Shown here piece after piece: positions 15,892-43,973 of a stretch of DNA of 64,000 nt. The notes beneath the pieces were generated by a model. That model saw only the letters and a program-made list of their open reading frames with translations, was not told the origin of the DNA and made no database searches. The first letter of the stretch is position 1. Every line of letters starts with the position of its first letter. The stretch comes from Paracholeplasma manati. Lineage in GTDB: Bacteria > Bacillota_I > Bacilli_A > Acholeplasmatales > UBA5453. The stretch lies in NCBI RefSeq assembly GCF_025742995.1, contig NZ_JAOVQM010000001.1:124001-188000 (forward strand), given 5' to 3'. The position numbers and the translations under genes are program-made.

Positions 15892-17343
15892 CCTTTACAG
15901 AATGACCTATGATATATACCTCTTAACGATTTAACTCGTCTTATTTAAAGCGACTACACACCAAATAGGTATGTACGCTTAGGTGTGTTCACACCTTTAT
16001 TCCCTATCCATATGGCATCGGGATTACCTTTTCGAATCATATTTAATGAGGCATTTTGGTCCGCGTTAATCAAAGTGCCTTTTAGACTCTTATATAAACC
16101 TCTTTTGATTCTAACACCAGAAAAATCTCCTTTAACGAAATCATCATGGTCTAGATATGAAGCTTTTGAAGTGTACGCTTCATTAATCACTTTGGTTTCA
16201 ATACCTATTTGTTCTGCTAGATAGACGATTCGATCTCTAAGTCTCGCGATTGGAATACTCTTTGTCCATTGATTATAGGTATCAGATAGTCTTTCATCTT
16301 TGAAGGTATCATTATAACCAATGATAATCTGTTTTACTTTGTTTTCTATTGCGTGATTGATAATGAGTTTAGCTGCTTTATAGATTCCATAATCCATTTG
16401 ATGGTTACGTTTATCCATCAGATGGATCATTTGTTTCGTTAAGACATTTTGGTTCGGTCTAATGCTCGCTAGTTTCGCGATTCTTTTATGATAAAACTGA
16501 TTCATACTCTTTAATCGTTTTCCATCTAATAATAAGTGCTCATTATTCGTGACTGAACAAAAGGCTAGGTTGTTATACCCAAAATCAATCCCCATAGTTT
16601 CTGTATGACCTTCGAATGGATTAACAGATTCCTTATCTAGATAGACATAAATCACTTCAATGTATTTGCCATCATAGTAGGACTTGATGGTGATTTCTTT
16701 GATTTCTTTGTTTTGGATACATTCTGGTGTTTGGATGTCTAGAGATAAAGCGTCTGCTTCATTTAACTCATATGTATGTTTATGAATCTGTTTTGAATCC
16801 TTTTCTAGTTCTTTCGATACTTTCTTAATGAAGTTACTTCTGGGTAATGTATAGATTTCATTATTAGGTTTATAGACCATTCTGTCGTAGATGGGATAAT
16901 AGGTATCTTTCTTTAAGTATCTAGGGAGTCTAATGGTTTGTTTAACCTTAGACTTCAAAGATACAAAGAATCCTTTCATCGCTTCATCGACCTTACGAAT
17001 GACCATTTGACCTTGAGTCGTACTTAAGTAACGATAATGTTCACTATCTTTCAGTAATTGGTAATTATCGTTATAGGATAAATACCCATTGGTTTTGATA
17101 AAATGTTGTCTTACATTATAGAGCGCTTGATTATAAAGACTTCTTGAAGCACGCATTAAAGATAATAAAAACTGATGTTGATTTGGATTAAGATAGAGTC
17201 TTGTTTTTAGGGCTTTATAAGGCATTATTGATGTCCTCCTTTCCTACTTAAATTATACCATAAACAGTCGATAAAATATATATTTTATACGTATATTTAA
17301 TTATATATAAAGTAGTGAAAGAGGGTGTTTTAAACGGGGTATT
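15892..17343 (-). mobile_element. Second TnpB-only element (IS200/IS605 superfamily), boundaries approximate
   Basis: A tnpB gene flanked by short AT-rich ends between two fragments that look like one split gene. The right side contains an ACGA/TCGT hairpin near 15925-15940 and on the minus strand a TTCAC near 15872-15885 like that at the end of the first element. The left side lies within 17230-17345. No TnpA is present. Boundaries are inferred from where the flanking reading frames break off. Confidence 0.6.
15954..17225 (-). CDS. tnpB: TnpB-family protein with relocated RuvC-II glutamate and no zinc ribbon
   Basis: 423 residues, a different lineage from the TnpB at 3.3 kb. RuvC-I Asp214 is present in GIDFGYNN and RuvC-III Asp389 in LINADQNASLN. 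At RuvC-II the usual glutamate is replaced: the strand reads QIIIGYND with Gly303. A glutamate is found later at 349 in NEAYTSKAS, the place used by a TnpB subgroup with a rearranged active site. The zinc-ribbon cysteines are also absent (TSKASYLDHDD instead of a CxxC). This combination is known in that subgroup, so the protein may still be a nuclease, but activity is uncertain. Start ATG at 17225 follows GGAGGACATCAAT. Confidence 0.88.
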   Translation of the reverse strand: MPYKALKTRLYLNPNQHQFLLSLMRASRSLYNQALYNVRQHFIKTNGYLSYNDNYQLLKDSEHYRYLSTTQGQMVIRKVDEAMKGFFVSLKSKVKQTIRLPRYLKKDTYYPIYDRMVYKPNNEIYTLPRSNFIKKVSKELEKDSKQIHKHTYELNEADALSLDIQTPECIQNKEIKEITIKSYYDGKYIEVIYVYLDKESVNPFEGHTETMGIDFGYNNLAFCSVTNNEHLLLDGKRLKSMNQFYHKRIAKLASIRPNQNVLTKQMIHLMDKRNHQMDYGIYKAAKLIINHAIENKVKQIIIGYNDTFKDERLSDTYNQWTKSIPIARLRDRIVYLAEQIGIETKVINEAYTSKASYLDHDDFVKGDFSGVRIKRGLYKSLKGTLINADQNASLNMIRKGNPDAIWIGNKGVNTPKRTYLFGV

Positions 17344-21311: not shown

Positions 21312-22316
21312 TTACTTTCGAGTGGTTGTGCTTTCTCTAACAACCAATTGTGTATCGACAATAATCGGTTCTTTTTTACGATCATCGGTGTTGAGCATAT
21401 GGATCATCAAATCCCAGGCTTTCTTTCCGATACCTTCATAATCTTGAGCAATGGTGGTTAGTCGTGGTGTCGCGATTTCACACACACTTAAATTATCAAA
21501 ACCAACAACAGATACATCGTCAGGAATCTTGTACCCTCGTTTTTGTAAAAGGGTAATGGTACCCATCGCCATGAGGTCTGAGGCACATACCACCGCGTCT
21601 GGTAAACCAAACTCAGTCAGTAAGTATTTCATGGTTTGATAACCTTCGGAGAATGTATAAGATTCATTCGATTGTTTTGCATTGTATATCGGCTTTAATT
21701 TGTGTGCCTTTATGAAATCCAAATATCCATTTAAGCGTTGTTGTCCAATTAAGTTGGTATAACTACCATTGACATACGCAATTTTACGGTGTCCTAAATC
21801 ATATAAGTGTTGGCAGCTTTTTTGGATGCCTGCATAGGAGTCCGAATAGATCGTATTTAAGCCTGAGTGTAATGGGTCAAGGGTAATGACTGCCATACTG
21901 CTTTGTGTGAGTTTGTTGATGGCTTCAATCGGTGCACTACCGATGGAAACAATGAGCACCCCGTCCACGTTTTTGGATTGACAGTGTCTAAAGTAATCAA
22001 TATTCTTCTCATTGTTATTGGATAACAATAAAATATCATAACCATTGAGTTGGGCATTTCTTCTGAATTCTTCTAAAACCGCGGAGAAAAACAGGTTACG
22101 TAATCCGAATTCAACTTCATAAACCACACCAATCGTATTGGCGCGTTTATTCACCAAACTTTGGGCGTTGGCGTTCGGGGTGTAACCGAGTTCGTCAGCG
22201 ATTTGACGAATGCGATCTTTGGTCTTTTGAGAGATTGCTTTATGACCGCTTAAAGCTTTTGAAACAGTGGATACAGACACATTGGCTTGGTCAGCTATTT
22301 TTTCTAATGTGATCAT
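21312..22316 (-). CDS. LacI/GalR-family transcriptional repressor of the glycan locus
   Basis: 334 residues. The N-terminal HTH and hinge (LEKIADQANVSVSTVSKALSGHKAISQKT, then GYTPNANAQSLVNKRANTIGVV) is standard, followed by a periplasmic-binding-protein-like effector domain with VDGVLIVSIG, DAVVCASDLMAMG and SVVGFDNLSVCEIATPRLTTI. It follows the last permease of the transport operon with a 200-bp gap holding a large inverted repeat, and may also have its own promoter (TATAAT at 22349-22354). The three CAAACGTTTG-type sites upstream of the operon are the natural LacI operators, so it most likely represses the transporters until a glycan-derived sugar binds. Direct binding is inference. Confidence 0.93.
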   Translation of the reverse strand: MITLEKIADQANVSVSTVSKALSGHKAISQKTKDRIRQIADELGYTPNANAQSLVNKRANTIGVVYEVEFGLRNLFFSAVLEEFRRNAQLNGYDILLLSNNNEKNIDYFRHCQSKNVDGVLIVSIGSAPIEAINKLTQSSMAVITLDPLHSGLNTIYSDSYAGIQKSCQHLYDLGHRKIAYVNGSYTNLIGQQRLNGYLDFIKAHKLKPIYNAKQSNESYTFSEGYQTMKYLLTEFGLPDAVVCASDLMAMGTITLLQKRGYKIPDDVSVVGFDNLSVCEIATPRLTTIAQDYEGIGKKAWDLMIHMLNTDDRKKEPIIVDTQLVVRESTTTRK

Positions 22317-22517: not shown

Positions 22518-23618
22518 TTATTCACCGGTGATACCGGTACGTTCAATGCCTTCAATAAATTTCTTTTGTGCAAACATATAGATGATGAGCAACGGTAAAA
22601 TTGAGAGGAATGTTGCTGCTGTTTTATACCCTTCATTGAGGAGCGCTTCACTCATTTGACCCCCAACACCACCACCAGACATGCTGGCGAAATCCGAATC
22701 AAATAATGCCAGTCTAGAGATGATGAGTGGGTTACCTGTACTGAAATAGACTTGTGCTGAATAAGAATCATTCCAGTTCCAAATAAAGGCGAATAGAAAC
22801 ACCACTGTAACAATCGGAATCACCAATTTGACATAGATTTGATAAAAGACTTGAAGTGAGGTTGCCCCATCGATGCGAGCTGCTTCGTCTAAAGATCGTG
22901 GTATCATTTTAAAGAAATTAAAGAAAATCAAAACAAGGATTGCAGAATTGATGCCTTGTCCAAAAATCGCGAAGAAGATTTGTGGAATCAACGTATTGAA
23001 AATCAATCTGTTAAAGATATCCCCCAAAAAGTTACCAGCAAATAGACTGTCATAGACTGGTACCCAAAGGTTGTCTTGAATGAAGGATAATATCTGCATT
23101 CTTGGCATCGTAACCATCGGTAATGGAATTACAAATGTCACGATAACCATGAAGAACCAAAACTTTTTAAACTTGAAATTGAATCTTGCGAAAGCGAACC
23201 CAGTCATCGCAGAGACCACAGTTTGCACAAAGGCGAGTACCCCTACATTCCGTAAACTCTTAAATAGATTTCCTGGGTCTTTGAATGTCCCCATCAAACG
23301 TTCACCAACAGTTAAACCACTGGCTGTCCAGGATGGTGGGAAGATTTCTAAAACGAAGTTCGCGACTTTAAAGTTATTGAGGTTGAGGTGGTTTGGTATC
23401 CATGTAACTTCTGGGTCTACCAAATCTTCAAATGCCATGAATGACATCGATACCATCTTGATGAGCGGGTATAAAAAAACGTAACTCATACCAATCAACA
23501 AGATATAAATGATGAGTTTCTTAAGGATGCCCGAAGACTCACCTAAACCCAGAAAAACCTTCTTTAATTTGTGGGGGTTTAAATAGGATTTGATGTCCAA
23601 TCGTTTTATTTTTTCCAT
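22518..23618 (-). CDS. Carbohydrate ABC transporter permease (MalG type)
   Basis: 366 residues, six core helices plus a longer N-terminal cytoplasmic stretch. The EAA loop that docks on the ATPase reads MIPRSLDEAARIDGATSLQVFYQIYVKLVIPI, matching the CUT1 family (EAAxIDGA). The last residues GIERTGITGE, including GITGE/GAVKG-like end, are typical of MalG-type subunits. It overlaps the upstream permease gene by 13 bp and forms pair 2 of the locus. It imports oligosaccharides together with a solute-binding protein and a shared ATPase not encoded here. Confidence 0.93.
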   Translation of the reverse strand: MEKIKRLDIKSYLNPHKLKKVFLGLGESSGILKKLIIYILLIGMSYVFLYPLIKMVSMSFMAFEDLVDPEVTWIPNHLNLNNFKVANFVLEIFPPSWTASGLTVGERLMGTFKDPGNLFKSLRNVGVLAFVQTVVSAMTGFAFARFNFKFKKFWFFMVIVTFVIPLPMVTMPRMQILSFIQDNLWVPVYDSLFAGNFLGDIFNRLIFNTLIPQIFFAIFGQGINSAILVLIFFNFFKMIPRSLDEAARIDGATSLQVFYQIYVKLVIPIVTVVFLFAFIWNWNDSYSAQVYFSTGNPLIISRLALFDSDFASMSGGGVGGQMSEALLNEGYKTAATFLSILPLLIIYMFAQKKFIEGIERTGITGE

Positions 23619-24613
23619 GATTGGATACCTCTCTTCATAGATGCAAAGTGACGATCAATGAACTGCTTTACCGTTTCATCCTTACGTTGATTACGACGTA
23701 ATTTCGTAACTGATTTCGCTTGTTTTTCTTTCAATGTTTCAATCATTTTTTCATCGTTCTTTTCACGGAAAATGAGTAACACTACCCCAATCATTAAGAT
23801 GATGATTAAGGAGTACATCACAACAATCCCTGAGGCGAAACCAAGACGAACCAAGCGATTCTTCGTGATTTGGTCATTGACTACATATTGATAGATGGGG
23901 TTCATTTCGAACAACGCAATTTGAATGACGACGAATATCGAGACGATTAAAGCCGTTGGTTTCAAGTTTGGTAAGCTGATTTTCCACAGGATTTGCCATG
24001 GATTCGCGCCATCAATTTGAGCCGCTTCATATAAATTGGTGTTGATTCTTTGAAGACCATTTAAAAATAGCACTACAGGTATCCCTGTCAGCCATAGAAT
24101 GGTTGTAAAGTTGGAAAAGAGATTGATAATCACTTCACCAAAGAAGGGTGAAAAGCTCTCTACCATGCGAAATATCAATACTTTGGATACATCGAACATC
24201 CCGGTGGTATTGGCAGACTCTAACTGCTTCATGACCGGTCCAGATAGAATGACGACTGGGAAAAAGTAGATGACTCTAAAAATGCCTTTAAAACGTATCT
24301 TACTATTCAGTAAAATGGCTATAATAAGCGATATTACTAAGATGGATGGGATATAAGTAATCTCCATCATAATAAACCCAATAATCAATGGGGTAAAGCT
24401 GGTGTTCTCAACCAAAGCTTCGGTATAATTTTTAAATCCAATAAACGTGGTTTGTAAGCCATCAATATTAATCACTGCATCAAAAAATGATAAATAGAGT
24501 GTATTGATGATGGGATAACCGATGAGGAAAATAAACCCGATCAACCATGGACTTAAAAAGAGATAAGCCGCTAAATTTTCATTGACAGGTTTTCTTTTTT
24601 TTGTTGAAGCCAT
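23606..24613 (-). CDS. Carbohydrate ABC transporter permease (MalF/UgpA type)
   Basis: 335 residues, six helices beginning AAYLFLSPWLIGFIFLIGYP, with the EAA loop NLYEAAQIDGANPWQILWKISLPNLKPT. The C-terminal 55 residues form a basic cytoplasmic tail (KEKQAKSVTKLRRNQRKDE) that is longer than usual and of unknown role. The gene begins 4 bp after the DUF5696 gene and overlaps its partner permease by 13 bp. It makes up permease pair 2 of the locus. Confidence 0.93.
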   Translation of the reverse strand: MASTKKRKPVNENLAAYLFLSPWLIGFIFLIGYPIINTLYLSFFDAVINIDGLQTTFIGFKNYTEALVENTSFTPLIIGFIMMEITYIPSILVISLIIAILLNSKIRFKGIFRVIYFFPVVILSGPVMKQLESANTTGMFDVSKVLIFRMVESFSPFFGEVIINLFSNFTTILWLTGIPVVLFLNGLQRINTNLYEAAQIDGANPWQILWKISLPNLKPTALIVSIFVVIQIALFEMNPIYQYVVNDQITKNRLVRLGFASGIVVMYSLIIILMIGVVLLIFREKNDEKMIETLKEKQAKSVTKLRRNQRKDETVKQFIDRHFASMKRGIQSWKK

Positions 24614-24616
24614 GTT

Positions 24617-27055
24617 TTAACCTCCAATGACTAGATAGCTTTGTGCAGTCACGATGTGTCCTGCGTAATTGACCGCTTGGGTCTGATAATTGATGAGAAT
24701 GGATACCCCATTGTTATAGGTATTCATGTATACATTTGGCATCACTTCTGTACGTGCAACCCAAGTCGCGTTCATCACAGGATTCAATGCTTGACTGACC
24801 GTTTGATAGACTTGTTCAATCAACGCTTGATTGATCGCGTACTCTGTAGAAAAGTAGTCTTGAGCATTGGTCTTTTGTAATTTATACGCAGGTTCTTGAG
24901 TCAAAATGAATGATGGGTATGTATTATAGTCAATCATCTTTAATAAGTCTTTTTGTTCGTAAAATGAAAAGTTCGCATAGGTTGCGTATAGTTCCATGGT
25001 ACCGTGTAATACCATTTGTAAGAATGGCACGGTTTCGGTTTCTACAATGTATTGAGAATTAAACATGGGTGTTTGAAGGAATCGATCCGTATATGCCCAT
25101 AAATATTGGTTGGGTGACACATGGTTGGTTTCATACTTCAGTTGAATCCACTCTGCAACTTCTTGGTATCTTTGTATGGTGTCAGTCATACTTCGATTTT
25201 TAGATGTATCGCTATATAACCATTGGGTATAGCCTTCATAAGTAATGTCACTAAACCCTATATTTTTGATTGAAGACACTTGTTTTTCGATGTATTCAAC
25301 GACTTTAGCTGGGCGAACATAATACGTTTTATTGGTAATCCCATCTACATGCATCGGATCAATCATCACCATATATTGGCCATTGATGTGTTTATTAGCA
25401 ATATTGGTTAAGCTAGTGGAAACATCGTTGATCTCAGCGATATTTTGAGCTATAGAGATGGATACACCTTGGGATTGCCACTGGGTGACAACGCGTTTAA
25501 AATCGGCAGCTGTACCAATCGCACGACTGTAATTTGGCGCGGTTTTTTTGCCTAAGGTGATACCACCTTGTTGATAACCATATAAGCCCGAATTGATGTT
25601 TGTAATCCCTAAATACATTAAATCACTTAAGATATGGTCAACATCGTCAATGGTTGTAACCACGACATCTTCCGTTCCAATCAATGACTTTTTCGCATCC
25701 GCCATTAAGAAGTCCACACGCAGTGGGATGGTGGTTGCTAAAGAGGCTTCTTTTAAGAATAATTGGTTGTTAGATAACAAATACGCACGATAGCTATTCG
25801 CCATCCCTTGATATGTAGGGTCTTCCTCTAAAAACGTGTAATGGATGGATAAATCAAAATGGTTTCTTTCTTTAAAAGCACTGATATAGGTATCCCCTGC
25901 TTGGTTATAAACTTGAGAATAACGTCCATTGTATAAGAATCTTGGAAATGAAATCGTATAATTGGTGAGGTTATAACTATCGGATGAGTCGTTGGGTCTT
26001 GAAATGATTTCCATATATTCCGCACCTTTGGTTGCGTAGGAAACAAAGGCTTTGGATAACGACTCATAGGCGATACCAAAGACAGGCATCAATGGTTGTT
26101 TGGTTGGCACACTCGATTGTACAAATTGTAAATTCGATGCGTATTGGGCCATATCGCCCCCATAAACAACCCCTGTGTACCCAGACAAGCTAGATTCATA
26201 GTCTTTGAAATCGATGAGTGCACCTGAACCATCGGGAACAAATACATACCCATCATGGCGTGGTTTTAGTACCGGTATATCCCAGGCACCTGTGGCAGGG
26301 TTATATTCGGTTTGTTTACCACCGTAAGCGCCTAAGAAAGGCATGATGTTGATGTAGTTGATGTAATTCGCGTCTTCCCCCGTGATTTCATGGTCACGAA
26401 TTTCTACATCAAACCCAGTGTCTAAAACATAAATATGGGCTTTGATTCTGACATCAAAAGCTTTAAACTGAACATCTAATACGAAATGACGATCATCGCC
26501 ATTTACTAGGTATAAATTGTCAGTATTGACTGAATCCTTTTGGATTTCCTTGATGGCGTATGAACTATCGGTTTGAATTTGTTTGGAATATGCTTTCGCT
26601 GAACTACCCATTTGAGTCGAAGCCCTAGCTGGGTCTGATGCACGCATCATATCGACAACAAGGAATGAATTCGCAATCCCTTCACGGGTATTGTTCATCT
26701 GTTCTTCAAGGGGTTGAGCGATTGAAGCCAGTTCAGTTGTTGTCGCATCTGGATGGTTTTCAGCATACAATTCGACTGTTTTCTCGATGTATTGGTCATA
26801 ATCATGATCAATGCCTGAGGTCCAAGAAGATCCATTTCGTTTGTCTACAACTTTAAAAATACCATTGTGTTTTTTGTAAAAGAGTTGAATATATTGGGTT
26901 TCTGATAATAAGGTATAAGTATCATTTAACGCTACTTTTGTGGTTGTATACGGGGGATAATTGTTTGTGGATTCTTGGGCATAACCCTGTGCAATCGTCA
27001 ATGAAATCAATCCCAATACAATCACAAATATCAGTGTTTTTTTAATTGGAAACAT
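24617..27055 (-). CDS. Secreted DUF5696-family protein, probably glycan-active
   Basis: 812 residues with a Sec signal peptide (LIFVIVLGLISLTIAQGYAQ) and no further anchor. The N-terminal 250 residues are beta-rich, then a large alpha/beta region with TIM-barrel-like alternation, ending in a small beta domain. Aromatic and acidic motifs such as VFVPDGSGALIDF, GITNINSGLYGY and MVMIDPMHVDGI, and VPFLQMVLHGTMELY, resemble carbohydrate-active enzymes but no catalytic pair can be named. DUF5696 proteins are known beside YIP1 proteins and sugar ABC systems in Bacillota. It overlaps the NHL-Yip1 gene by 14 bp. A role in binding or cutting the glycan at the cell surface is inference. Confidence 0.75.
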   Translation of the reverse strand: MFPIKKTLIFVIVLGLISLTIAQGYAQESTNNYPPYTTTKVALNDTYTLLSETQYIQLFYKKHNGIFKVVDKRNGSSWTSGIDHDYDQYIEKTVELYAENHPDATTTELASIAQPLEEQMNNTREGIANSFLVVDMMRASDPARASTQMGSSAKAYSKQIQTDSSYAIKEIQKDSVNTDNLYLVNGDDRHFVLDVQFKAFDVRIKAHIYVLDTGFDVEIRDHEITGEDANYINYINIMPFLGAYGGKQTEYNPATGAWDIPVLKPRHDGYVFVPDGSGALIDFKDYESSLSGYTGVVYGGDMAQYASNLQFVQSSVPTKQPLMPVFGIAYESLSKAFVSYATKGAEYMEIISRPNDSSDSYNLTNYTISFPRFLYNGRYSQVYNQAGDTYISAFKERNHFDLSIHYTFLEEDPTYQGMANSYRAYLLSNNQLFLKEASLATTIPLRVDFLMADAKKSLIGTEDVVVTTIDDVDHILSDLMYLGITNINSGLYGYQQGGITLGKKTAPNYSRAIGTAADFKRVVTQWQSQGVSISIAQNIAEINDVSTSLTNIANKHINGQYMVMIDPMHVDGITNKTYYVRPAKVVEYIEKQVSSIKNIGFSDITYEGYTQWLYSDTSKNRSMTDTIQRYQEVAEWIQLKYETNHVSPNQYLWAYTDRFLQTPMFNSQYIVETETVPFLQMVLHGTMELYATYANFSFYEQKDLLKMIDYNTYPSFILTQEPAYKLQKTNAQDYFSTEYAINQALIEQVYQTVSQALNPVMNATWVARTEVMPNVYMNTYNNGVSILINYQTQAVNYAGHIVTAQSYLVIGG

Positions 27056-29072
27056 GACGAATCAGCTCCTTCCATATACCGTCGATAAAGATATACAATT
27101 GACGCCACATCGTAATGATGATGATCACAACCACAATCATGATGATGGTGAATAACAAACTCATAAGGATACTCTTAAATGCTTTTTTACCGCGGTATTG
27201 ATGGATTTCAATGATGCCTAAAAACACCAATATCACGCTGTAGACAACCCCAATATTCATGGTGGTTGTAATAAAGAAAGCTTCATTTAAAGTGAGGTAA
27301 TGCGAGAGGATTGTGGTTAAACCAAACGCAATCATGATTGGACCCAAACTATAAGCAAACATCATATAGATTTGTTTAAAGTTACCAATCCCGTCGTGTA
27401 ATGAGGTATCTAGATAATTCGATACCATGAAGAGTCCTGTTAAGAGGAAATAGCCTAATATAATGGCCGTTAAATCCAAATCTTCAATCGCGACTGCTTG
27501 AAAGATAAATCCTTGAGATGAACTATATATAATGAGCAACACAAGGGTTGCTAGATACAGTATGGTTGCTGCTAGCATCGAACCTTTATGGCCCATTTTA
27601 ATCTCATAGAAACTGTCTAGAGGTTTCTTAATCACACGCCAAAAATAGGCGATGTCTTTGAGCCATTTACGATCAAAGAACGTTTTAATTGGTGTGGTAT
27701 ACTTCGTAATAATCCCTGTTTTATGATTGACAAAAACGAGGGATTTTTGGGTCGCATATAAAGCAATTAACACGATGATGAATACCCCAAGCAACCTTTG
27801 GATTTGCACATTTCTAACTTCCCAATACGCTTGAGAGTATAAGGTTTTATTACCTGCAAGTTCAAAGTGCAACATCGCTTCATCGTATTGTTCTAGCTGT
27901 AAATAACTTTTCGCAATACTATTATGCGCTAACGTCGACATCTGGTTGAGGTTTAAAACGGCTTGCCACGCTTCGATGGCTTGTTGGTATTCACGTTGTT
28001 CATATAAGGCGATGGCTTGATAAATTTGTTCACTATAATCGGTGGGTCTAAACGACTGTAAGAAAGACTTTGACTCGTCTAATGCGAAAATGAACCCATC
28101 TTCGCGAACAGCGATGGCAGATAAACTTGTAAATAACCCTTTGATATCTTCATCGGGTTTACTGCCGGTACCTTTACGAATCCCAAAACTGAGAATGAAC
28201 TCACCATAAGCATCGTATATATAAATGGCCCCAGTTTGAGTACCTGCATAAATAATGCCTTGGTCATCAACATAGATGTCTCTGGTGTCTTCAGACCCAA
28301 CGGTATTGGAAAACATATTACCACCTTGCATATTGTGTTTCTTAACTGCGGTGGTTGTCGTATTCATCGTGGAGGTATAGATCATCGAGTTTTGATCGAT
28401 GAAAATACTGGAGAACGTTTGAGGGCTACGAAGCGCTAAACGGTCGAATTGGTCTTGAGACAAAATGAGTTTATAAAATTGTTGGGTAATGGATAATTGG
28501 ACTTTATTGGTTGTAAAGAAACCTAAAAACTCCCCTTGGTTCGATAGTTGTATAATCCCGTTACTAACGCCTTCTCCATAGATGTACATATTCCCGCGGT
28601 TGTCGACAACCATCTTACTTGGGGCGAATGCTGTATCCGCGAATGAAGGTGAAGTAGGTCTGGTATACGTTTCTAAATGATTACCAAATAAGTCAAATTT
28701 GAAGACAGCTTTTGCACTAGAATCTGCTACATATAAGTATTGATTAGACACATATAAACCACGAGGTGTTACAAAGTCGGGGTACACTATTTCAGTTAAA
28801 ACCGTATTGGTATTGGTATCATATGTCAGAATGCGTTTGTTGCCTGTATCAGCAATCCAGAGGGTGCCTTGGTCATCAAACATCATGTCTTCTGGTTTAC
28901 TCAATCCCATATCGATATTGACCATCTCAGGCAAATAGGCATCTTGAGTACGGATGTATTGGCCTTTCGCATCCAAAGTAACCGTATAAGTTGTTGCTTC
29001 TGAAGCATGAATTGGTAACATCATCGTCATCGTGACGAAGATGATTAAAGATAGGATAGTTAGTTTTTTCAT
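27042..29072 (-). CDS. NHL-repeat / TPR / Yip1 membrane protein
   Basis: 676 residues in a mosaic order: signal peptide (1-23), a six-bladed NHL-type beta-propeller (about 30-345, with repeated DDQGTLWIADTGNKRI and DNRGNMYIYGEG units), a short TPR segment (about 350-412, YQQAIEAWQAVLNLN and AKSYLQLEQYDEAMLHFELAG), a membrane helix (about 420-440), and a C-terminal Yip1-type domain with five helices (about 480-660). The propeller and TPR lie outside the cell. Such proteins sit beside sugar ABC systems, but their function is unknown; a scaffold or sensor for the transporter is inference. RBS GTAGGAGGG precedes the ATG. Confidence 0.85.
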   Translation of the reverse strand: MKKLTILSLIIFVTMTMMLPIHASEATTYTVTLDAKGQYIRTQDAYLPEMVNIDMGLSKPEDMMFDDQGTLWIADTGNKRILTYDTNTNTVLTEIVYPDFVTPRGLYVSNQYLYVADSSAKAVFKFDLFGNHLETYTRPTSPSFADTAFAPSKMVVDNRGNMYIYGEGVSNGIIQLSNQGEFLGFFTTNKVQLSITQQFYKLILSQDQFDRLALRSPQTFSSIFIDQNSMIYTSTMNTTTTAVKKHNMQGGNMFSNTVGSEDTRDIYVDDQGIIYAGTQTGAIYIYDAYGEFILSFGIRKGTGSKPDEDIKGLFTSLSAIAVREDGFIFALDESKSFLQSFRPTDYSEQIYQAIALYEQREYQQAIEAWQAVLNLNQMSTLAHNSIAKSYLQLEQYDEAMLHFELAGNKTLYSQAYWEVRNVQIQRLLGVFIIVLIALYATQKSLVFVNHKTGIITKYTTPIKTFFDRKWLKDIAYFWRVIKKPLDSFYEIKMGHKGSMLAATILYLATLVLLIIYSSSQGFIFQAVAIEDLDLTAIILGYFLLTGLFMVSNYLDTSLHDGIGNFKQIYMMFAYSLGPIMIAFGLTTILSHYLTLNEAFFITTTMNIGVVYSVILVFLGIIEIHQYRGKKAFKSILMSLLFTIIMIVVVIIIITMWRQLYIFIDGIWKELIRHVSN

Positions 29073-29081
29073 TAGACCCTC

Positions 29082-29960
29082 CTACTTAATCCCAGCATGC
29101 GCCATGGTGTTCATAACACGAGACTGCATGATGATGAATATGATGAGGTTAGGGATGAATAGAATCAACCCTGCAGCGGCTGCCATACCAGTACCAGCAA
29201 CAGCTGAGCCTGTATTTTGTAATGCCAACGCATTTAGATAAAAGGCAAACGACTTCATGGTTTCATCTTGTATATATAGCGTTGAAGCTTCGACAGCTGA
29301 CCATGTGGATTGGAAGGTTAAAATAGCCACCGTCGCAATCGCGTTTTTAGTCAAAGGCATGATGATTTTAAAAATAATATAGAAGTCCCCAGCACCATCG
29401 ATGCGTGCCGCTTCGATGATCGGGTCTGGTACTTGATCGATGAATTGTTTCATCAAAAAGATATTCACTGGAACCGCGATATACGGTAAGATGTGCACCA
29501 AAGGATTGTTATTCAATCCGATTTTAACGATGACAAAATAGGTTGGTATCACCACGGCTGTCCTTACAAACATCAAGGCTGTTTGATTGATGGAAAACAG
29601 TGTTTTTTTACCCTTAAAGTTCTTCTTAGAAAATGCATAACCCGTGGTCACACTGATCCAAATGATGAGGATCATCATCACCAATGTAATCAACAATGTA
29701 TTGAATAAGTATCTCGATAGCGGGACACCTGTACTGGTTGAAATCCTGAACAAAGTCGTAAAGTTATCAAACGTTGGGTTTTGTGCAAAAAAACGTGGTG
29801 GGAATAAGAACAACTCATCCAACGGTTTAAATGCTTGATTCACAATGTAGAGGATGGGTAACACCATAAATAATGTGAGGGGAACCAATATCACATAAAA
29901 GATCACTTGTGAACGGTTAAATGAGGTGGGATTGATTTTGGTACCTTGAAAACTACTCAT
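29082..29960 (-). CDS. Carbohydrate ABC transporter permease (MalG type), pair 1
   Basis: About 292 residues, six helices, EAA loop DPIIEAARIDGAGDFYIIFKIIMPLTKNA. The C-terminus SRVMNTMAHAGIK is typical for this subunit class. The ATG at 29958-29960 is preferred; a GTG three codons earlier would overlap the preceding gene by one base and cannot be excluded. It follows its partner permease without a gap and precedes the NHL-Yip1 gene by 9 bp. It works with the partner and probably with one of the two solute-binding proteins upstream. Confidence 0.92.
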   Translation of the reverse strand: MSSFQGTKINPTSFNRSQVIFYVILVPLTLFMVLPILYIVNQAFKPLDELFLFPPRFFAQNPTFDNFTTLFRISTSTGVPLSRYLFNTLLITLVMMILIIWISVTTGYAFSKKNFKGKKTLFSINQTALMFVRTAVVIPTYFVIVKIGLNNNPLVHILPYIAVPVNIFLMKQFIDQVPDPIIEAARIDGAGDFYIIFKIIMPLTKNAIATVAILTFQSTWSAVEASTLYIQDETMKSFAFYLNALALQNTGSAVAGTGMAAAAGLILFIPNLIIFIIMQSRVMNTMAHAGIK

Positions 29961-29968
29961 AACAGACA

Positions 29969-30901
29969 CTAATCCTTTTCTGCAAACAATTTGTATGCGA
30001 CTTTAGAAAACACGATGATGATGGCGAGCAACACCACCGATAATGCAGCTGCATAGCCCATTTCATATCTTAAAAATCCATAGTCATCGATATGATTGGT
30101 AATGAACTGTGCTGCATTTTGTGGGGTAGGGTTTGCCCCGGATAAGGCAACCCCAATATACCCATTGGTAAAGGTAGCGACAATTGCCATGACGGCACCA
30201 AACAACATTTGTGGTTTCATCATCGGGATAGTCACGTGGATGACTTCTTGAAACTTATTATCGATACCTTCCACATAAGCGGCTTCATAGAGTTCTTCAT
30301 TCCCATTGAGAATACCGGCTAACATGGCTAAGAACCCAACACCCATGCTGCTCCATAAAGCAACTATGATGACCACAGTCATTAAGTGGTCTGGGGATTG
30401 AAGGAATTGGATAGGGCGTTCAATCATGTCCCATTGCAACAACAAAGCATTGATATAGCCCGATTCATCCCCTGAGAATAATGTTCTCCAAATAACGGCG
30501 ATGAAGACACCACCAATCATGGATGGGGTATATAACAGTAAAGCAAATATGGTTCTTGGTAGTTTTTGGATTTGAGCCAACATCCAAGCGAGCACGAATG
30601 CCAACATATAGCCACCTGGTCCAACAATGATGGCGAAGGTCAGTGTTTTTGGTAATACATATTGTAAAAACACATCGTCTTGGGTAAAGATATTGACGAA
30701 ATTGACTAACCCATTCAATGTTGGTGTTTCAACGACGTTGAATGAGGTTAAGGATAAATAGATAGCCAACGCGACAGGAATCGCGATGAATACTGAAAAC
30801 AATAAGGTGTACGGTAATAACATCAAGAAAACTCCAAACGCATCTTTTCGTCTGGTTTTTCGATAAGAAGCCAGTGGTTTCATTTTAATTGTCTGATCCA
30901 T
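29969..30901 (-). CDS. Carbohydrate ABC transporter permease (MalF/UgpA type), pair 1
   Basis: 310 residues, six helices. The EAA loop reads GNEELYEAAYVEGIDNKFQEVIHVTIPMMKPQ; the usual IDGA is changed to VEGI, which is within family variation. It starts with an RBS GGGGG and an ATG that overlaps the end of the 997-residue solute-binding gene by 17 bp. A basic cytoplasmic N-terminus (KPLASYRKTRRKDAFG) precedes helix 1. Forms permease pair 1. Confidence 0.92.
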   Translation of the reverse strand: MDQTIKMKPLASYRKTRRKDAFGVFLMLLPYTLLFSVFIAIPVALAIYLSLTSFNVVETPTLNGLVNFVNIFTQDDVFLQYVLPKTLTFAIIVGPGGYMLAFVLAWMLAQIQKLPRTIFALLLYTPSMIGGVFIAVIWRTLFSGDESGYINALLLQWDMIERPIQFLQSPDHLMTVVIIVALWSSMGVGFLAMLAGILNGNEELYEAAYVEGIDNKFQEVIHVTIPMMKPQMLFGAVMAIVATFTNGYIGVALSGANPTPQNAAQFITNHIDDYGFLRYEMGYAAALSVVLLAIIIVFSKVAYKLFAEKD

Positions 30902-33878
30902 GATATCCCCCTGAGGCTTCCATCATTTTGTCTTGAATCCATTCGATGGTAGGAATGGTGTAAACCTTTAATACATCGCCATTTTGATCGATGAATCCAA
31001 ACTCAATCATCTTTTTACGGATTTCACGGTTGATTAAAATGGTATATTGGTCTACCGCAATCCCTGTACTTTCCCCATTGAATACAACATCGGTCCAAAT
31101 GTTCGATAAAGAACGTTCAAGCATGTATTGTCCTGGGGTTCTTGGTACGTCAATCAACCATTTCACTTGTTCAAGAATGACGCGCTTATCCCCTTCGGGT
31201 AGCGGTGAATTCTCTACAGCGTGGATATTGGCTGATAACCAGGCGTAAGTCGGACCATAGGTGGATTGCAAATTGAATGCGAACTTGGTTTGTGTTTCTT
31301 CGCCCAACCACCATTTTAAGAATGCCCAAGATTCATTGGGTTTTTTCGTACCATTTAAAATCATCCCTGCTGTACCGTTCGCGATGTAATAACGATTGGT
31401 TTCACCATTTTCTGGTGTCACACTCGGGTATGGTGCGATGCGCCATTGTCCAACGATTTCTGGCGCTGCATTCTTGATGAGTAAATAGTTTTGGAAATCA
31501 CTGATGCCAATCGGCAAAGTCGCGTATCTAAATGCGTTATAAAACGATTGGACTTGTTCGGGTAAAGAATAGTTGGTGAATAATTGATTGAGGAATGTGA
31601 GTCCTTCAATCGAAGCTTTGGTGTTGATGGTCGTGTTCATCCCATTGGTATCGTATAAAGCCCCGCTATATTGATAGATGAAGCCTGATGTTTGATAGAA
31701 ATACTTCGTACCACCACTACCAGCAATTGGGTGATAGAAATTCATCCCATATTGTTGAAGTTCCGGGAGAATTTGAATCACTTCTTCCCAAGTATCTGGT
31801 ACCATGAAGCCTAACGCATCAAAGATATCCTTACGATACATTAAGACATTAAAGTCTAACGTTTCTGGAATCGCATAGGCTTTATCATTGAGTACATACG
31901 GGATAAATGCCCCTGGTGAGAACGCACTCGCAAATGACCAGTAATCTGGGAATGAGGATAAATCATAAGCCGCGTTACGAATGGCTAAATCATAGGGCAT
32001 ATAGGACGCTAACCCTAATGCAACATCGGGTTGTTGTCCTGCCGCTGCAGACATCACCAGTTTATTTGGGTCCGGCATCACTGAAATTTTCACACGAATC
32101 CCGGTATCTTCTGTAAAGTTTTGGTCTGCCATCTTTTGCATCATATCGACATAAGTGATCGGTCTATTCACCCACACATCCACAACTTTAGGGTCGTTGT
32201 CTTGTTTGAATTTGTTGGAGCTGAAAGAAGCCATGAATGTTTCAAGTGAAGCAAACATGCTTCTAAAGAAACCAACGTTTTCCTTTGGTAATTTGGTGTC
32301 ACTATATAAATATAGTTCATCCAAATACATCGGTTGTTCTGCAATTTCGGTCAATGAGTTCCCTAGGTATTGGGTAACTGAACCACTACCACCGATTAAA
32401 TCATCTAGGTAAAATGGTAATCTTTCATAATCTTTATAGATGTTATTTAATCTAAAGAGTGCTTTTTGAAGGTTAGAGATAGTGGATGATTCGTATTGGT
32501 TAGGGGCGTAGCTAGACAAATCGGTGATGATGGTTTTGATGAGTAATTGATACGCTTCTAAATAAGCCGGTGTTTCAGGGATGTATTGGGTAAATTGCCA
32601 TGTACGATCTTTGTCGATGGTTTTACCCGTGATTTTACGGATTTCTAGGGAGAACGCGTTGATATGATCAATCAGTAATTGAATTTGTCTTAGGCTATTT
32701 TGAACAGGCTCAGATTCTGCTTTGATGGTAATCGTGTGGGTACCTTTGGATAAATACACTTCATATGGGGTATCCCCGTTGGATAAAGTGTGCATCTTGA
32801 TGGTCGTAGCACGGGTGGTAGGGACCGCGTACGCTCTGAATTCCTCAAATGGAATTTCGCCATCAATCGCGATGGATCGGAACACTTTAAAATCCGCTTT
32901 ATCGTTGATGTATTTGATGGCCAATTGGTAGAAACCAGCGGTTTCTACATTAACATCATAGGTTAACGATTGTCCCGATTGTTTCCAAGTTGCACCATCA
33001 ATGACATTGAGTTTTTTATACACCGCATCAAAGGGTTGAACCGATGGGTTATTCAATGAGAACGATTGAACATACGATGAGTTTTTTTGAACATAATCAA
33101 TCGCGTCGACTGTAATAAGCGATTGTATTTTAGGTCCTACATGTTGAGATAAATAGGTCACATAGGTGTCATATTTTTTAGGTGATTGGAGATGGATGTT
33201 CGCTACAGTTACTGGGGTTGAACCCATATTTTCCACTTCAATCACGTTTTCGCCGGATTCAAAATAAAACATCAGTGGGTCAATACTTTGATATGTACTG
33301 CCATATAGGGGTTGATTTTGCCACCCAGAAATAATCACTTGATTGGATAAAACTTCATCGCCATAACGGTCTGTACTGTACTCTTTTGATTCGTCTTTCC
33401 AAAGGGTAGGCAAGATGATGGAATTCATCTCGCTGTAAAAGGTTTCGCCATTGATCTTTAGCGAAACAATGACATCGTTGAGTGATGATTCTCCTAACAG
33501 ATAATTCATATCGATGGTATAGTAGCCACCCTCTGTTAAAGTCAATTCATAGCGCGCGATATCGCCTTCTTCAAGCATTTTAACGGGTTTATTTAAATCA
33601 AGATCAACGTCATCATAGACAAAAAGATCGACATCTACATCGGGATGATTGTAGGTGACCTCGTGTTGATGTTCATTTAAATAATCGACGTAAGTATATT
33701 TGTCGATATCGTGTTTATTGAGTAGTTCATTTAACAAATTAAAAGCCGCGGTTTCGTCAGCTTTAGTAATGGTTTCATTGAGTTTATAGGTATATCCTGA
33801 ATCCACTAAACGGGTAATGCTAAAGATCCCCACCATCACGACGATTAAGATCAAAAAGGTGCGTTTTAGTTTTCTCAT
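30885..33878 (-). CDS. Very large extracellular solute-binding protein with N-terminal beta-sandwich domains
   Basis: 997 residues, more than twice the usual length. An N-terminal signal-anchor (RTFLILIVVMVGIFSITRLV) lacks a lipobox. Two beta-rich regions (about 90-235 and 280-410) have carbohydrate-binding-module-like patterns (YELTLTEGGYYTIDMNYLL; SLTYDVNVETAGFYQLAIKY), then a helical linker (410-560), and a family-1 solute-binding domain from about 565 to 990 (DVWVNRPITYVDMMQKMADQ, GFMVPDTWEEVIQILPEL, and a final WLGEETQ region). Probably it captures a glycan on the surface and hands it to permease pair 1. It is separated from the first solute-binding gene by a perfect 12-bp hairpin. Confidence 0.88.
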   Translation of the reverse strand: MRKLKRTFLILIVVMVGIFSITRLVDSGYTYKLNETITKADETAAFNLLNELLNKHDIDKYTYVDYLNEHQHEVTYNHPDVDVDLFVYDDVDLDLNKPVKMLEEGDIARYELTLTEGGYYTIDMNYLLGESSLNDVIVSLKINGETFYSEMNSIILPTLWKDESKEYSTDRYGDEVLSNQVIISGWQNQPLYGSTYQSIDPLMFYFESGENVIEVENMGSTPVTVANIHLQSPKKYDTYVTYLSQHVGPKIQSLITVDAIDYVQKNSSYVQSFSLNNPSVQPFDAVYKKLNVIDGATWKQSGQSLTYDVNVETAGFYQLAIKYINDKADFKVFRSIAIDGEIPFEEFRAYAVPTTRATTIKMHTLSNGDTPYEVYLSKGTHTITIKAESEPVQNSLRQIQLLIDHINAFSLEIRKITGKTIDKDRTWQFTQYIPETPAYLEAYQLLIKTIITDLSSYAPNQYESSTISNLQKALFRLNNIYKDYERLPFYLDDLIGGSGSVTQYLGNSLTEIAEQPMYLDELYLYSDTKLPKENVGFFRSMFASLETFMASFSSNKFKQDNDPKVVDVWVNRPITYVDMMQKMADQNFTEDTGIRVKISVMPDPNKLVMSAAAGQQPDVALGLASYMPYDLAIRNAAYDLSSFPDYWSFASAFSPGAFIPYVLNDKAYAIPETLDFNVLMYRKDIFDALGFMVPDTWEEVIQILPELQQYGMNFYHPIAGSGGTKYFYQTSGFIYQYSGALYDTNGMNTTINTKASIEGLTFLNQLFTNYSLPEQVQSFYNAFRYATLPIGISDFQNYLLIKNAAPEIVGQWRIAPYPSVTPENGETNRYYIANGTAGMILNGTKKPNESWAFLKWWLGEETQTKFAFNLQSTYGPTYAWLSANIHAVENSPLPEGDKRVILEQVKWLIDVPRTPGQYMLERSLSNIWTDVVFNGESTGIAVDQYTILINREIRKKMIEFGFIDQNGDVLKVYTIPTIEWIQDKMMEASGGYHGSDN

Positions 33879-33954: not shown

Positions 33955-35595
33955 TTAAAAGTCTTTTTCTGTTTTGCCGTAGTATTGTACTAATCCAGCT
34001 TTTAGTTCATCAAATGCTTGTTCAAAACGCGCATTGAATAAGACATTCCACTCAGGTAATTTAGCCAATACTGCATCGGTAAATGCAACACCGTCTAAGA
34101 TTTCAGGTGAAGTGGCTTCTGGGTTACCAGTTAAGGTTGCAGGGTTACCCATTTGATTCCATTCATGGAAAATTTGTTTGGTTTCGCCGGCTTCGGTGAA
34201 GTTCCAAGGGTATGCTTTGTCAGCCACGTCGTAGATCTTGCCTTCGTTGAAGATTTGTAGAATCTTTTGGAAACCAGGGGTTCTTTCAGCATCTCTGAAA
34301 TATTGGTGTGTCGGTAATGAATACCAAATTTCCATTTGTTCCGCGAAAGTATCGCCAGTTGTGACAGGGAAACTGTCGCTCATGACTGTATCAAATTTGC
34401 CATTATTGTTGTATTGTTGTTTGCTTTGAGCTTCCCAAGAACGTGTATCTGCAGTCCAGAAGCTTGCAAAAGTATACGCGATTTCAAGTTTGCTCTTTTC
34501 TTCTTGTGATAATTTAACATCGCTGTCATCCATTGCGTAGTTACGGATTGCAATAGGGTCTAAGACAATACCCACAGTGTTATCTACACCATTGGTAGAA
34601 GGTCTTGGATAGTAGTCCCAGTCCACATCGTTTAACATCAATTCGCTGGTTAATGGATTCGCTGCGTCACCTAACATCCAAGGGTCTGCACTGTTGGTTA
34701 ACATCTTACCTTGTTTGAAGAAGTTGTGTCCCCACCAACCGCCACTGCCATAGAATTCATTGGTTGTACCGCCACTTGACCAACCTTCACCAGTAGTCCA
34801 CAATGCGTTTTGTGCCCAAGTGGTGATGTAAGGGATCAATGCTCTTACTTCATCGGAATTGACGTTGACATAATCGCCATCAACACCTTGTTTTAGAAGT
34901 TGTTGCGTAATCGTGGTTGCACCAGTTTGAATCATTCTGAAGTCAGGATTTTCTGTACCGTAGAATTCATTGATTTGGCTATGAGCAACGAATTCAGTAT
35001 ATTCTTCGATGGTCCAATCTGGTGATGGTACATCTAAGTTCTTTTCTTCAGCGAAATCTCTGTTGACATAAATGCCCCATGGTACTAAATATTCAGGAAG
35101 ACCTGCTTGAACGCCATAATAGTTCAACATCTTCATGAATGCTGGGTTAATCGATTTGTAAACAGCATCGTCTTTGAACACAGATAAGTCTGCGACCAAT
35201 CCCCTAGTGGTATCGCCTGCTAAATCAGTAGCTGACCAAATATCCACTTTTGTACCAGTTTGTTGTTCGTAGTTGCTTCTATATTGTGCCCAAGTTTCTT
35301 TGGTGTCCCAGTTATAGGAGTCCCCTAGTTTAAAATGAACATTGATTTTAACATTTGGATAATGTTTGTTAAATTCTGTCGCAACTGCATACATTAAACC
35401 GAGTTTATCGTCTTTGATGTCTGCGGTGTTTAATGTTTGGTGACCAAGGTCTTCATAGGTGTTTCCGTCACCGTTGTAAAGCATGACTGTAACTTCACCA
35501 GCCACATTCGCATCCAACCCTGAATCTTTTTTGCAGGCTGCCAATGTTAAAGCGAGTGTCAATACTGTGATGAGTAATGTAAGTCTCTTTATCAT
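33955..35595 (-). CDS. Sugar ABC transporter solute-binding lipoprotein
   Basis: 546 residues with a lipoprotein signal (ITVLTLALTLAAC, lipobox LAAC). The mature protein is a family-1 carbohydrate-binding protein of larger than usual size, with DLAGDTTRGLVADLSVF, a hinge with EYLVPWGIYVNRDF and aromatic residues throughout for sugar stacking. It is the first gene of the transport operon, directly behind the promoter with three LacI-type operators, so it should be the most highly expressed product. RBS AAAAGGAGAAAA. Likely ligand: a beta-glucan oligosaccharide, inferred from the GH30 gene next door. Confidence 0.92.
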   Translation of the reverse strand: MIKRLTLLITVLTLALTLAACKKDSGLDANVAGEVTVMLYNGDGNTYEDLGHQTLNTADIKDDKLGLMYAVATEFNKHYPNVKINVHFKLGDSYNWDTKETWAQYRSNYEQQTGTKVDIWSATDLAGDTTRGLVADLSVFKDDAVYKSINPAFMKMLNYYGVQAGLPEYLVPWGIYVNRDFAEEKNLDVPSPDWTIEEYTEFVAHSQINEFYGTENPDFRMIQTGATTITQQLLKQGVDGDYVNVNSDEVRALIPYITTWAQNALWTTGEGWSSGGTTNEFYGSGGWWGHNFFKQGKMLTNSADPWMLGDAANPLTSELMLNDVDWDYYPRPSTNGVDNTVGIVLDPIAIRNYAMDDSDVKLSQEEKSKLEIAYTFASFWTADTRSWEAQSKQQYNNNGKFDTVMSDSFPVTTGDTFAEQMEIWYSLPTHQYFRDAERTPGFQKILQIFNEGKIYDVADKAYPWNFTEAGETKQIFHEWNQMGNPATLTGNPEATSPEILDGVAFTDAVLAKLPEWNVLFNARFEQAFDELKAGLVQYYGKTEKDF

Positions 35596-35804: not shown

Positions 35805-37121
35805 TTATAGTTCGATCGTCAAAACAGACTTTTCTTTGAGTTGATAACCTATAACAGCATCTTTAACAGCGAATCTAATTTCTTTTGGATCATCCGATTT
35901 ATTATAAACCACACAAACCATGGATTGATCTGGATTAAGGAAACTTACACTGATCAAATCGGTATCCTCTACCGTTGTTTCAATCACATGTGCACCTCTT
36001 TGAACAAATTTCGAAAAATGGCCAACCAAATAGTATTCTACATTTTTTTCGATGTGTTGAGTGATAGGATCAATGGTCAATAAACCTCGACAGTTCATAC
36101 AACCACCATTTTTAGGACCGCACTCTAAATCTAACGCAATGTTCCACAATAACACAGATTTCGCCCCATATTGAAGAGAGCCTAAAAATACATTTTCAAG
36201 ATTCCAACCCAAATTATCACTGAAGTTGTTAGCCCATAAACCGCCTGAACATTCCGTAAACCAAATATCTTTATCCGGGTATTCTTCTATCAATGCTTGT
36301 GTCGCTTTGACGTTCCCGTCATAACAATGGAAACCAGTACCTGCAACAGCTAAAGCAGCTTTTTCGTCGGAATAGATGGTTCTTGCATAATCAATATCAT
36401 CCCAATTGTGGTCATAGGCGATGATTTTTGTGTCGATATTTTGTTCTTTAAAGGTATCTGATAGTATTTGAACAAATGCTTTCTGTTCTTGACCACTCAT
36501 CAACATCGATGGGTAAGTCAAGGCTTCATGGCGTGGTTCATTTTGTGGGGTAATCGCGTAAATGTCGATGCCTATTGCTTGATAACTCTTAATGAACTTC
36601 GCTAAATATCTTGAATAGACACCATAATGTTTTGGTAATAATCGTCCGCCATTCAAATGATGATTATCTTTCATCCAAGCAGGCGCTGTCCATGGACTAG
36701 ATACCACTAAAAAATCATGGTATGTTTTCGCAACCTTCAACATTGGAATGACATAATTCAAATCATCACTCAAAGAAAAGTGATTCAAATCATCATCTTC
36801 AGATTGAGGATCAATATCGTTGTAGGTGTAACTTCTCATTGAAAAGTCGGATGCGCCAATGGTGGTTCTAACAAAGGAAATACCAATGCCCTCTTTACCA
36901 AACAAAGCGCTCATGACTTCTTGTTGGTGTTTTGAATCGAGTTGTGATAAAAGAAATGCAGATGATTCGGTCATCGCTGCACCAAAGCCATCCACCACTT
37001 GTTTCAAATGGTTTGGATTCAAATGGATATTGGGTTTGTTCGTGGTTGAATACACCGGTTCTTGAACAAATTTCTTCGATTCATCCCCAGTAGTTACGTA
37101 TAATTTAACAGTTCTGTTCAT
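35805..37121 (-). CDS. Glycoside hydrolase family 30 (glucosylceramidase/beta-1,6-glucanase-like)
   Basis: 438 residues: a TIM barrel followed by a C-terminal beta domain (from about 385), the normal GH30 layout. Acid/base Glu195 in ITPQNEPRHE and nucleophile Glu290 in IWFTECSGG are in the canonical places. GH30 subfamilies near this one cleave beta-1,6-glucan or beta-glucosides. No signal peptide, so it would digest imported oligosaccharides in the cytoplasm. It lies 2 bp after the SGNH esterase stop, in one transcription unit. Exact linkage specificity cannot be told from sequence. Confidence 0.93.
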   Translation of the reverse strand: MNRTVKLYVTTGDESKKFVQEPVYSTTNKPNIHLNPNHLKQVVDGFGAAMTESSAFLLSQLDSKHQQEVMSALFGKEGIGISFVRTTIGASDFSMRSYTYNDIDPQSEDDDLNHFSLSDDLNYVIPMLKVAKTYHDFLVVSSPWTAPAWMKDNHHLNGGRLLPKHYGVYSRYLAKFIKSYQAIGIDIYAITPQNEPRHEALTYPSMLMSGQEQKAFVQILSDTFKEQNIDTKIIAYDHNWDDIDYARTIYSDEKAALAVAGTGFHCYDGNVKATQALIEEYPDKDIWFTECSGGLWANNFSDNLGWNLENVFLGSLQYGAKSVLLWNIALDLECGPKNGGCMNCRGLLTIDPITQHIEKNVEYYLVGHFSKFVQRGAHVIETTVEDTDLISVSFLNPDQSMVCVVYNKSDDPKEIRFAVKDAVIGYQLKEKSVLTIEL

Positions 37122-43736: not shown

Positions 43737-43973
43737 TGCATTACCTCTTTTGTAGACATGCATTGCTGATCATAAAATTCAATTCAACATATTGTAATTA
43801 GCGCTTATTAAAAATCTGTAAACTTTTTGGTTGCATACAATCATTATATCTATTTAAAGACTATTTTGTTTCAAAATAATTTCAAATCAGCGCTATTTTT
43901 TAAAAATTTTCGATGATTCCCAATATAAAATCAAAGTTTTGCTTGCTAAGTATGATATTCTCATATGAATATA

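Follow-up and report, generated by a model that had tools for sequence, protein, structure and literature searches.

We found that a protein combining an NHL propeller, TPR helices and a Yip1 membrane domain, together with the DUF5696 protein encoded next to it, forms a couple of unknown function amid a conserved sugar-import block in many bacteria. This points to a machine, as yet undescribed, for aiding the uptake of polysaccharide pieces. The window, as we call the whole stretch of 64,000 nucleotides analysed here, holds one such cassette. The couple is the most constant centre of the cassette, and the cassette is the proper unit of study. We give roughly even chances to the reading that the two proteins serve a CUT1-type importer as its dedicated subunits, membrane and extracytoplasmic, in which an NHL–TPR–Yip1 hub and a non-cutting DUF5696 would hand the glycan over to the permeases.

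Organization of the cassette in the window

The genes of the cassette all lie on the minus strand and are colinear: a putative second solute-binding protein (SBP; 33955-35595, 546 amino acids), a large SBP of about 990 amino acids (30885-33878, exactly 997), permease pair A (A1, 29969-30901; A2, MalG/UgpE-like, 29082-29969), NHL–TPR–Yip1 (27042-29072, 676 amino acids), DUF5696 (24617-27055, 812 amino acids) and permease pair B (B1, 23606-24613; B2, 22518-23618). Two PF00528 genes thus stand on either side of the couple (22518-24613 and 29082-30901). The four permeases, assigned by PF00528 and by their position in the cassette, score 26.5-46.3 bits against a cut-off of 26.4, with B1 at 26.5, and, judged by eye, all of them show an EAA-like loop. 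One protein matches SBP_bac_1, namely the large SBP, at residues 580-863 behind a long N-terminal extension in which we noted nothing beyond weak Golvesin_C, PEGA and CBM_35 hints. The putative second SBP has a lipobox, judged by eye, and gave no Pfam match itself. A GH30 enzyme without an N-terminal signal, and so predicted to be cytosolic (35805-37121), lies, like the two SBP genes, upstream of NHL–TPR–Yip1 in the direction of transcription, and a LacI-family regulator identified by Pfam (21312-22316) lies downstream and closes the cassette on its 3′ side; both are likewise on the minus strand. The window also contains an IS605 OrfB-type transposase gene (15954-17225) and a gene for a PAS-GGDEF-HD_5 protein (41205-43763).

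Pfam, an AlphaFold model, fold matches and hydrophobicity together give the layout of NHL–TPR–Yip1: a signal peptide (residues ~1-24), the NHL propeller (~44-343), TPR helices (~345-408), one transmembrane segment within residues 419-449, a charged linker and the Yip1 domain (478-649). NHL was matched at residues 57-82 (29.5 bits against a cut-off of 20), TPR_2 at 28.0 against 27, and Yip1 (PF04893) at 478-649 with 40.9 bits against 28.6, covering positions 1-172 of the 173 in the profile. In the model, built from 70 sequences (mean pLDDT 89.6, pTM 0.79), residues 43-341 resemble an NHL domain, that of Thin (6d69), with a Z score of 30.6 and an rmsd of 2.5 over 261 residues, and residues 345-406 form the TPR helices. 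A fusion of this kind, overlapping the DUF5696 gene and lying between permease pairs, is what the preliminary description had proposed, and the Pfam matches, the model, the 14 bp shared by the start of the DUF5696 gene with the NHL–TPR–Yip1 gene, and the flanking PF00528 genes bear it out.

Besides the signal and the single transmembrane segment in 419-449, the hydrophobicity scan of NHL–TPR–Yip1 revealed several hydrophobic stretches between residues 496 and 666. From the positions of the signal and the transmembrane segment, and provided that the signal is cleaved, the propeller and the TPR would lie outside and the charged linker inside. An N-terminal hydrophobic segment was seen in 79 of 79 NHL–TPR–Yip1 proteins, as against 1 of 35 LacI proteins. 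The couple might also be a surface sensor that signals bound glycan across the membrane for operon control: the ectodomain of a sensor can be an NHL domain, the fold matches to the propeller include the extracellular domain of PknD, and LacI-type genes occur in 38 of the 80 related loci described below. However, Pfam found no cytosolic signalling domain in the window protein, and the predicted cytosolic linker (about 43 residues) is poorly conserved, with a mean top-residue frequency of 0.38 against 0.51 for the propeller, and we regard a sensory role of the couple as very unlikely. Alternatively, NHL–TPR–Yip1 may be an assembly or sorting factor for the large SBP, DUF5696 and the permeases, standing outside the working transporter. 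Eukaryotic Yip1-domain proteins have a role in membrane traffic and TPRs are often adaptors, and the tight linkage reported below would suit a dedicated chaperone. Against this, the propeller is large, is predicted to face outward and is about as conserved as the rest of the protein. Overall, we consider the assembly factor unlikely.

Conservation of the cassette among relatives

A scan with the NHL–TPR–Yip1 alignment gave 129 relatives, the best 80 of which, mostly contigs of metagenome-assembled genomes (MAGs), are the named loci used here. These best 80 come mostly from Bacillota (Acholeplasmataceae, Erysipelotrichaceae, Lachnospiraceae, Oscillospiraceae, Bacillus and Paenibacillus), together with four Thermotogota records, one Treponema MAG and one Anaerolineaceae MAG, whose 5.4-kb contig carries a partial cassette only. 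The nearest among them (L061) has an NHL–TPR–Yip1 98% identical to that of the window, which places the source of the window among Acholeplasmataceae relatives. A search of viral contigs found no relatives, and a virus origin was rejected.

Wherever the contig permitted a test among the 80 loci, DUF5696 directly followed NHL–TPR–Yip1 (69 of 69). Downstream, B1 and B2 were each found in 61 of 65 testable loci; upstream, A2 in 72 of 74, A1 in 66 of 70 and the large SBP in 57 of 60. The fourth upstream gene was labelled a small SBP in 34 of 53 loci. Pfam, applied to this second-SBP position in five loci, found SBP_bac_1 in three (L100, L101 and L120) and no match in L063 and L114, and a lipobox is present in 33 of 39 homologues of the putative second SBP. 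Where the NHL–TPR–Yip1 and DUF5696 genes are neighbours (76 pairs), they overlap in all but one. This overlap, and the same gene order in other genera and phyla, indicate that the arrangement is not due to chance.

Some loci depart from the pattern. Pair B is missing beside the couple in L127 and L131, the latter also being without A1 and the large SBP; L073 and L136 have B2 and no B1 label; and L091 has a single A permease of 579 amino acids. Antisense open reading frames (ORFs) occupy the expected site of pair A in L074 and L086, and some of the misses (L074, L086 and L211, for example) arise from our longest-ORF rule, which lets an antisense ORF mask a gene.

A split form of the protein, in which NHL–TPR (about 480-750 amino acids) and Yip1 (about 215-265 amino acids) are encoded by two adjacent genes, takes the same position in the cassette. 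In the three split loci analysed with Pfam, the small gene matched Yip1 (41.6-54.8 bits) and its large neighbour TPR or NHL. In a short form, found in three (L216, L217 and L220) of a further 16 loci, NHL–TPR–Yip1, DUF5696, B1, B2 and an SBP are present with no adjacent pair A or large SBP; permeases were found in 15 of these 16 loci, the other one, L219, being cut by the contig end. The short form points to pair B as the working partner of the couple. In each of the short-form genomes (G661 and G639) there are 11 DUF5696 matches, including fragments.

No MalK-like gene was found inside the cassettes searched with a MalK query among 1586 neighbourhood ORFs. Five of these ORFs matched the query: two in L201, which is not a cassette, one at the far end of L102, and two, of 586 and 597 amino acids, directly downstream of B2 in L194. 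The genome of the window encodes two OB_MalK proteins above the cut-off, both on other contigs.

NHL–TPR–Yip1 and DUF5696 occur as a pair

The coupling to DUF5696 suggested by the preliminary description is strongly supported by co-occurrence. We sampled 148 genomes from the family centred on the Paenibacillus genome of L116 (G446): 96 had strong matches to both proteins, 52 to neither and none to one alone. The thresholds (1e-20 and 1e-50) were chosen after the values had been seen; the NHL–TPR–Yip1 values leave a gap from 1e-18 to 1e-85, and G596, whose DUF5696 match was at 1e-13, was scored as having neither. By the PF18952 cut-off, DUF5696 was present in 97 of these 148 genomes, with up to at least 8 matches each (8 candidates were scored per genome). 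Among 199 genomes around the window, NHL–TPR–Yip1 was found in 71 and DUF5696 above its cut-off in 72. The pairwise distance correlation was highest for the couple (r 0.94; 0.74-0.93 for other gene pairs, 56 loci), a value to which the shared inheritance of linked genes contributes. Among the matches listed, DUF5696 lay no more than 3 kb downstream of 89 of 105 full-length NHL–TPR–Yip1 proteins; among the other 16, the five fetched (L156-L160) all adjoin DUF5696, two of them being cut by the contig end.

The coupling to permeases is likewise strongly supported. Apart from the frequencies of A2 and B1 given above, we fetched 43 loci (L141-L160 and L175-L197), of which 42 had DUF5696 above 100 bits, L157 being cut by the contig end. 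At least one permease was present in all 42: A1, A2 and B2 were found in 40 each and B1 in 39, alongside NHL–TPR–Yip1 in 41 and the large SBP in 40. Losses were at contig ends (L156, L160 and L184) or in one remnant (L197, with a DUF5696 of 339 amino acids), and in L158 (4297-6177) and L188 single permeases of 626-630 amino acids are probable fusions of B1 and B2. Neither gene was seen to occur frequently without sugar transporters, save for four PF18952 matches above the cut-off outside cassettes (34.6-54.5 bits; L198-L201, in G275, G291, G307 and G375), which are weak, cover part of the profile only, and were neither included in the 42 loci nor counted as members.

Matches to PF18952 below the cut-off occur in many genomes, and the control genomes of Thermotoga maritima and Lactococcus lactis give them also, there as scores without coordinates. 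Most cover part of the barrel and were taken to reflect a shared barrel fold, and we rejected them as members of the family.

DUF5696 has a GH129-like fold

DUF5696 of the window (PF18952, E 1.3e-133) begins with an N-terminal hydrophobic signal of 27 amino acids, beyond which the scan found no hydrophobic stretch; an N-terminal hydrophobic segment is present in 71 of 74 DUF5696 proteins. Its model (pLDDT 91.2) has a GH129-like fold over nearly the whole length, matching the GH129 structure 5opq with a Z score of 28.9 and an rmsd of 3.6 over 586 residues. GH129 enzymes head the fold ranking (Z 28.9-27.6), and GH13, GH101 and GH36 come behind (Z 19.2 and below). Identity to the matched GH129 structures is 13-14%. 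The GH129 profile, PF11308, did not come up when the window protein was compared with Pfam down to an E value of 1, and a single-sequence search gave no credible solved relative (best E 0.072); a profile search of solved structures gave weak GH129 matches.

To locate catalytic residues we aligned DUF5696 with GH129 proteins of two of the genomes, those of L114 (Bacillus) and L116 (Paenibacillus), but the alignment is weak (hhalign probability 84.5). Among DUF5696 sequences, no conserved acid pair was found at the ends of strands 4 and 5. Barrel strand 4 ends at residue 607 (window numbering), which is D or E in 43 of 64 type I proteins and G, S, T or others in the rest. In a set of 32 long proteins (type II/III), which were chosen by length (815-1200 amino acids) and are mostly, not exclusively, of the split form, 16 have R or S at residue 607, and 16 have D at residue 608. 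The strand-5 region showed no conserved Glu, and when 33 type I proteins were compared with the 32 long ones, the only acids conserved in both sets were D275 and D/E709.

These observations bear on whether DUF5696 cuts glycans. The GH129/GH101-like fold, the frequent acid at 607 of type I and the aspartate at 608 in half of the long forms would suit an active, surface-trimming glycoside hydrolase of an undescribed family. NHL–TPR–Yip1 would then be merely its anchor beside an ordinary oligosaccharide importer, a sensible partner for a protein with no hydrophobic stretch except its signal. The variability of 607, the missing Glu and the few shared acids argue against such an enzyme, and we think it rather unlikely. 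As far as alignments can tell, DUF5696 is probably a pseudo-glycosidase, with a GH129-like fold and without an evident conserved catalytic acid pair; because of the acids at 607 and 608 and the weakness of the GH129 alignment, the loss of catalysis stays unproven.

Neighbouring enzymes and putative substrates

The enzymes beside the cassette differ from locus to locus. We found GH16, GH3, PF10091, GH35/42, GH5, GH2 and GH123; a GH149-like phosphorylase and GH30; two GH26 with a mannosidase-like GH2; or GH106 with pectate lyase. Further cassettes in the window's own genome adjoin PF10091 enzymes (L142), GH16 (L143) and NamZ/NagZ (L144). The GH30 enzyme of the window is best matched in NCBIfam by endo-1,6-beta-glucanase, with 336 bits where the cut-off is 700, and its homologue in L061 is of equal length and likewise without a signal; the substrate is predicted to be a beta-1,6/1,3-glucan.

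Beside split forms we found NamZ (GH171-type), a NagZ-like GH3, GHL10 and NAGPA. A signal is absent in all six NamZ matches and in 10 of 12 NagZ-like ones, the two exceptions being weak matches. The split-form cassettes that adjoin signal-less NamZ and NagZ-like GH3 (L144, L145, L148, L149, L154 and L175) possibly constitute an importer of peptidoglycan glycan in Acholeplasma relatives.

At some loci, a secreted and a signal-less copy of one endo-enzyme family occur together (as assigned by a simple rule on hydrophobicity and lipobox, under which some cases are borderline): in the 80 loci, 9 of 16 with PF10091, 9 of 35 with GH16 and 2 of 15 with GH30. Examples are endo-glucanases of the same family, a secreted lipoprotein and a signal-less copy, in L063 (108-827 and 16530-17429) and L139 (12762-15437). 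Only cytosolic enzymes were called in 5 of 16, 8 of 35 and 1 of 15 loci, respectively, and only secreted ones in 2 of 16, 18 of 35 and 12 of 15. A cytosolic endo-enzyme makes sense if the imported chains exceed its products, and the paired loci thus suggest, from gene content, that longer glycan chains may be imported. However, the many loci with only secreted endo-enzymes need no such import and fit that of ordinary short oligosaccharides.

Discussion

The preliminary description had proposed a cell-surface scaffold or a processive loader of glycan onto the transporters. A scaffold or loader appears to fit and to be the best idea available; processive action would be a further supposition. 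If the couple does consist of dedicated importer subunits, the Yip1 domain and the single transmembrane segment would sit in the membrane with the propeller and the TPR facing outward, and NHL–TPR–Yip1 would dock DUF5696 and the permeases as one assembly. DUF5696, its catalytic pair apparently lost, would hold the glycan chain uncut and present it to pair B, and pair A with the large SBP, missing in the short form, would offer a second entry. Import would be powered by a shared MalK-type ATPase encoded elsewhere, and the chain would be degraded by cytosolic enzymes such as GH30. The physical complex, the binding of glycan without cleavage and the hand-over of the chain are what we infer. We hold with less confidence, and as a tentative proposal that is somewhat improbable as a whole, that the cassette represents an undescribed class of polysaccharide importers widespread in Gram-positives, in which a Yip1-anchored hub bridges two permease pairs, a dead GH129-like subunit threads intact chains, and the split branch imports peptidoglycan glycan strands in Acholeplasma relatives.

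How long glycans are transferred from the surface to the cytosol in Gram-positives is poorly understood, and the cassette bears on this question. It is common and adjoins enzymes predicted for beta-glucans, mannan, pectin and peptidoglycan, and these neighbours provide testable predictions of substrates. DUF5696 gains a function class, and the bacterial Yip1 domain gains a context. That the arrangement was not yet described, as the preliminary description had it, agrees with our finding no paper on DUF5696, or on Yip1/NHL with ABC, in an open-access library.

Comparison with known systems

With CUT1-type importers (MalFGK2-MalE type) the cassette shares permease pairs made up of two PF00528 genes, an SBP and a regulator of the LacI family, and MalK-like ATPases encoded elsewhere in the genome are candidate partners. 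In contrast to them, it has two permease pairs, two further conserved subunits and an SBP of about 990 amino acids that bears a long N-terminal extension. If long chains enter and are then cut inside, the cassette would be similar in its working to the alginate importer AlgM1M2SS/AlgQ of Sphingomonas A1, which has one permease pair and is not known to have an NHL, TPR, Yip1 or GH129-like part. DUF5696 shares its fold, over nearly the whole length, with the GH129 glycosidases NagBb and ZgGH129, but identity is low, and acids are not evidently conserved at the strand ends where the catalytic residues would be expected. Finally, the window protein's domain exceeds the curated cut-off of the Yip1 family (PF04893), and here this domain is fused to, or adjoins, an extracytoplasmic NHL–TPR part.
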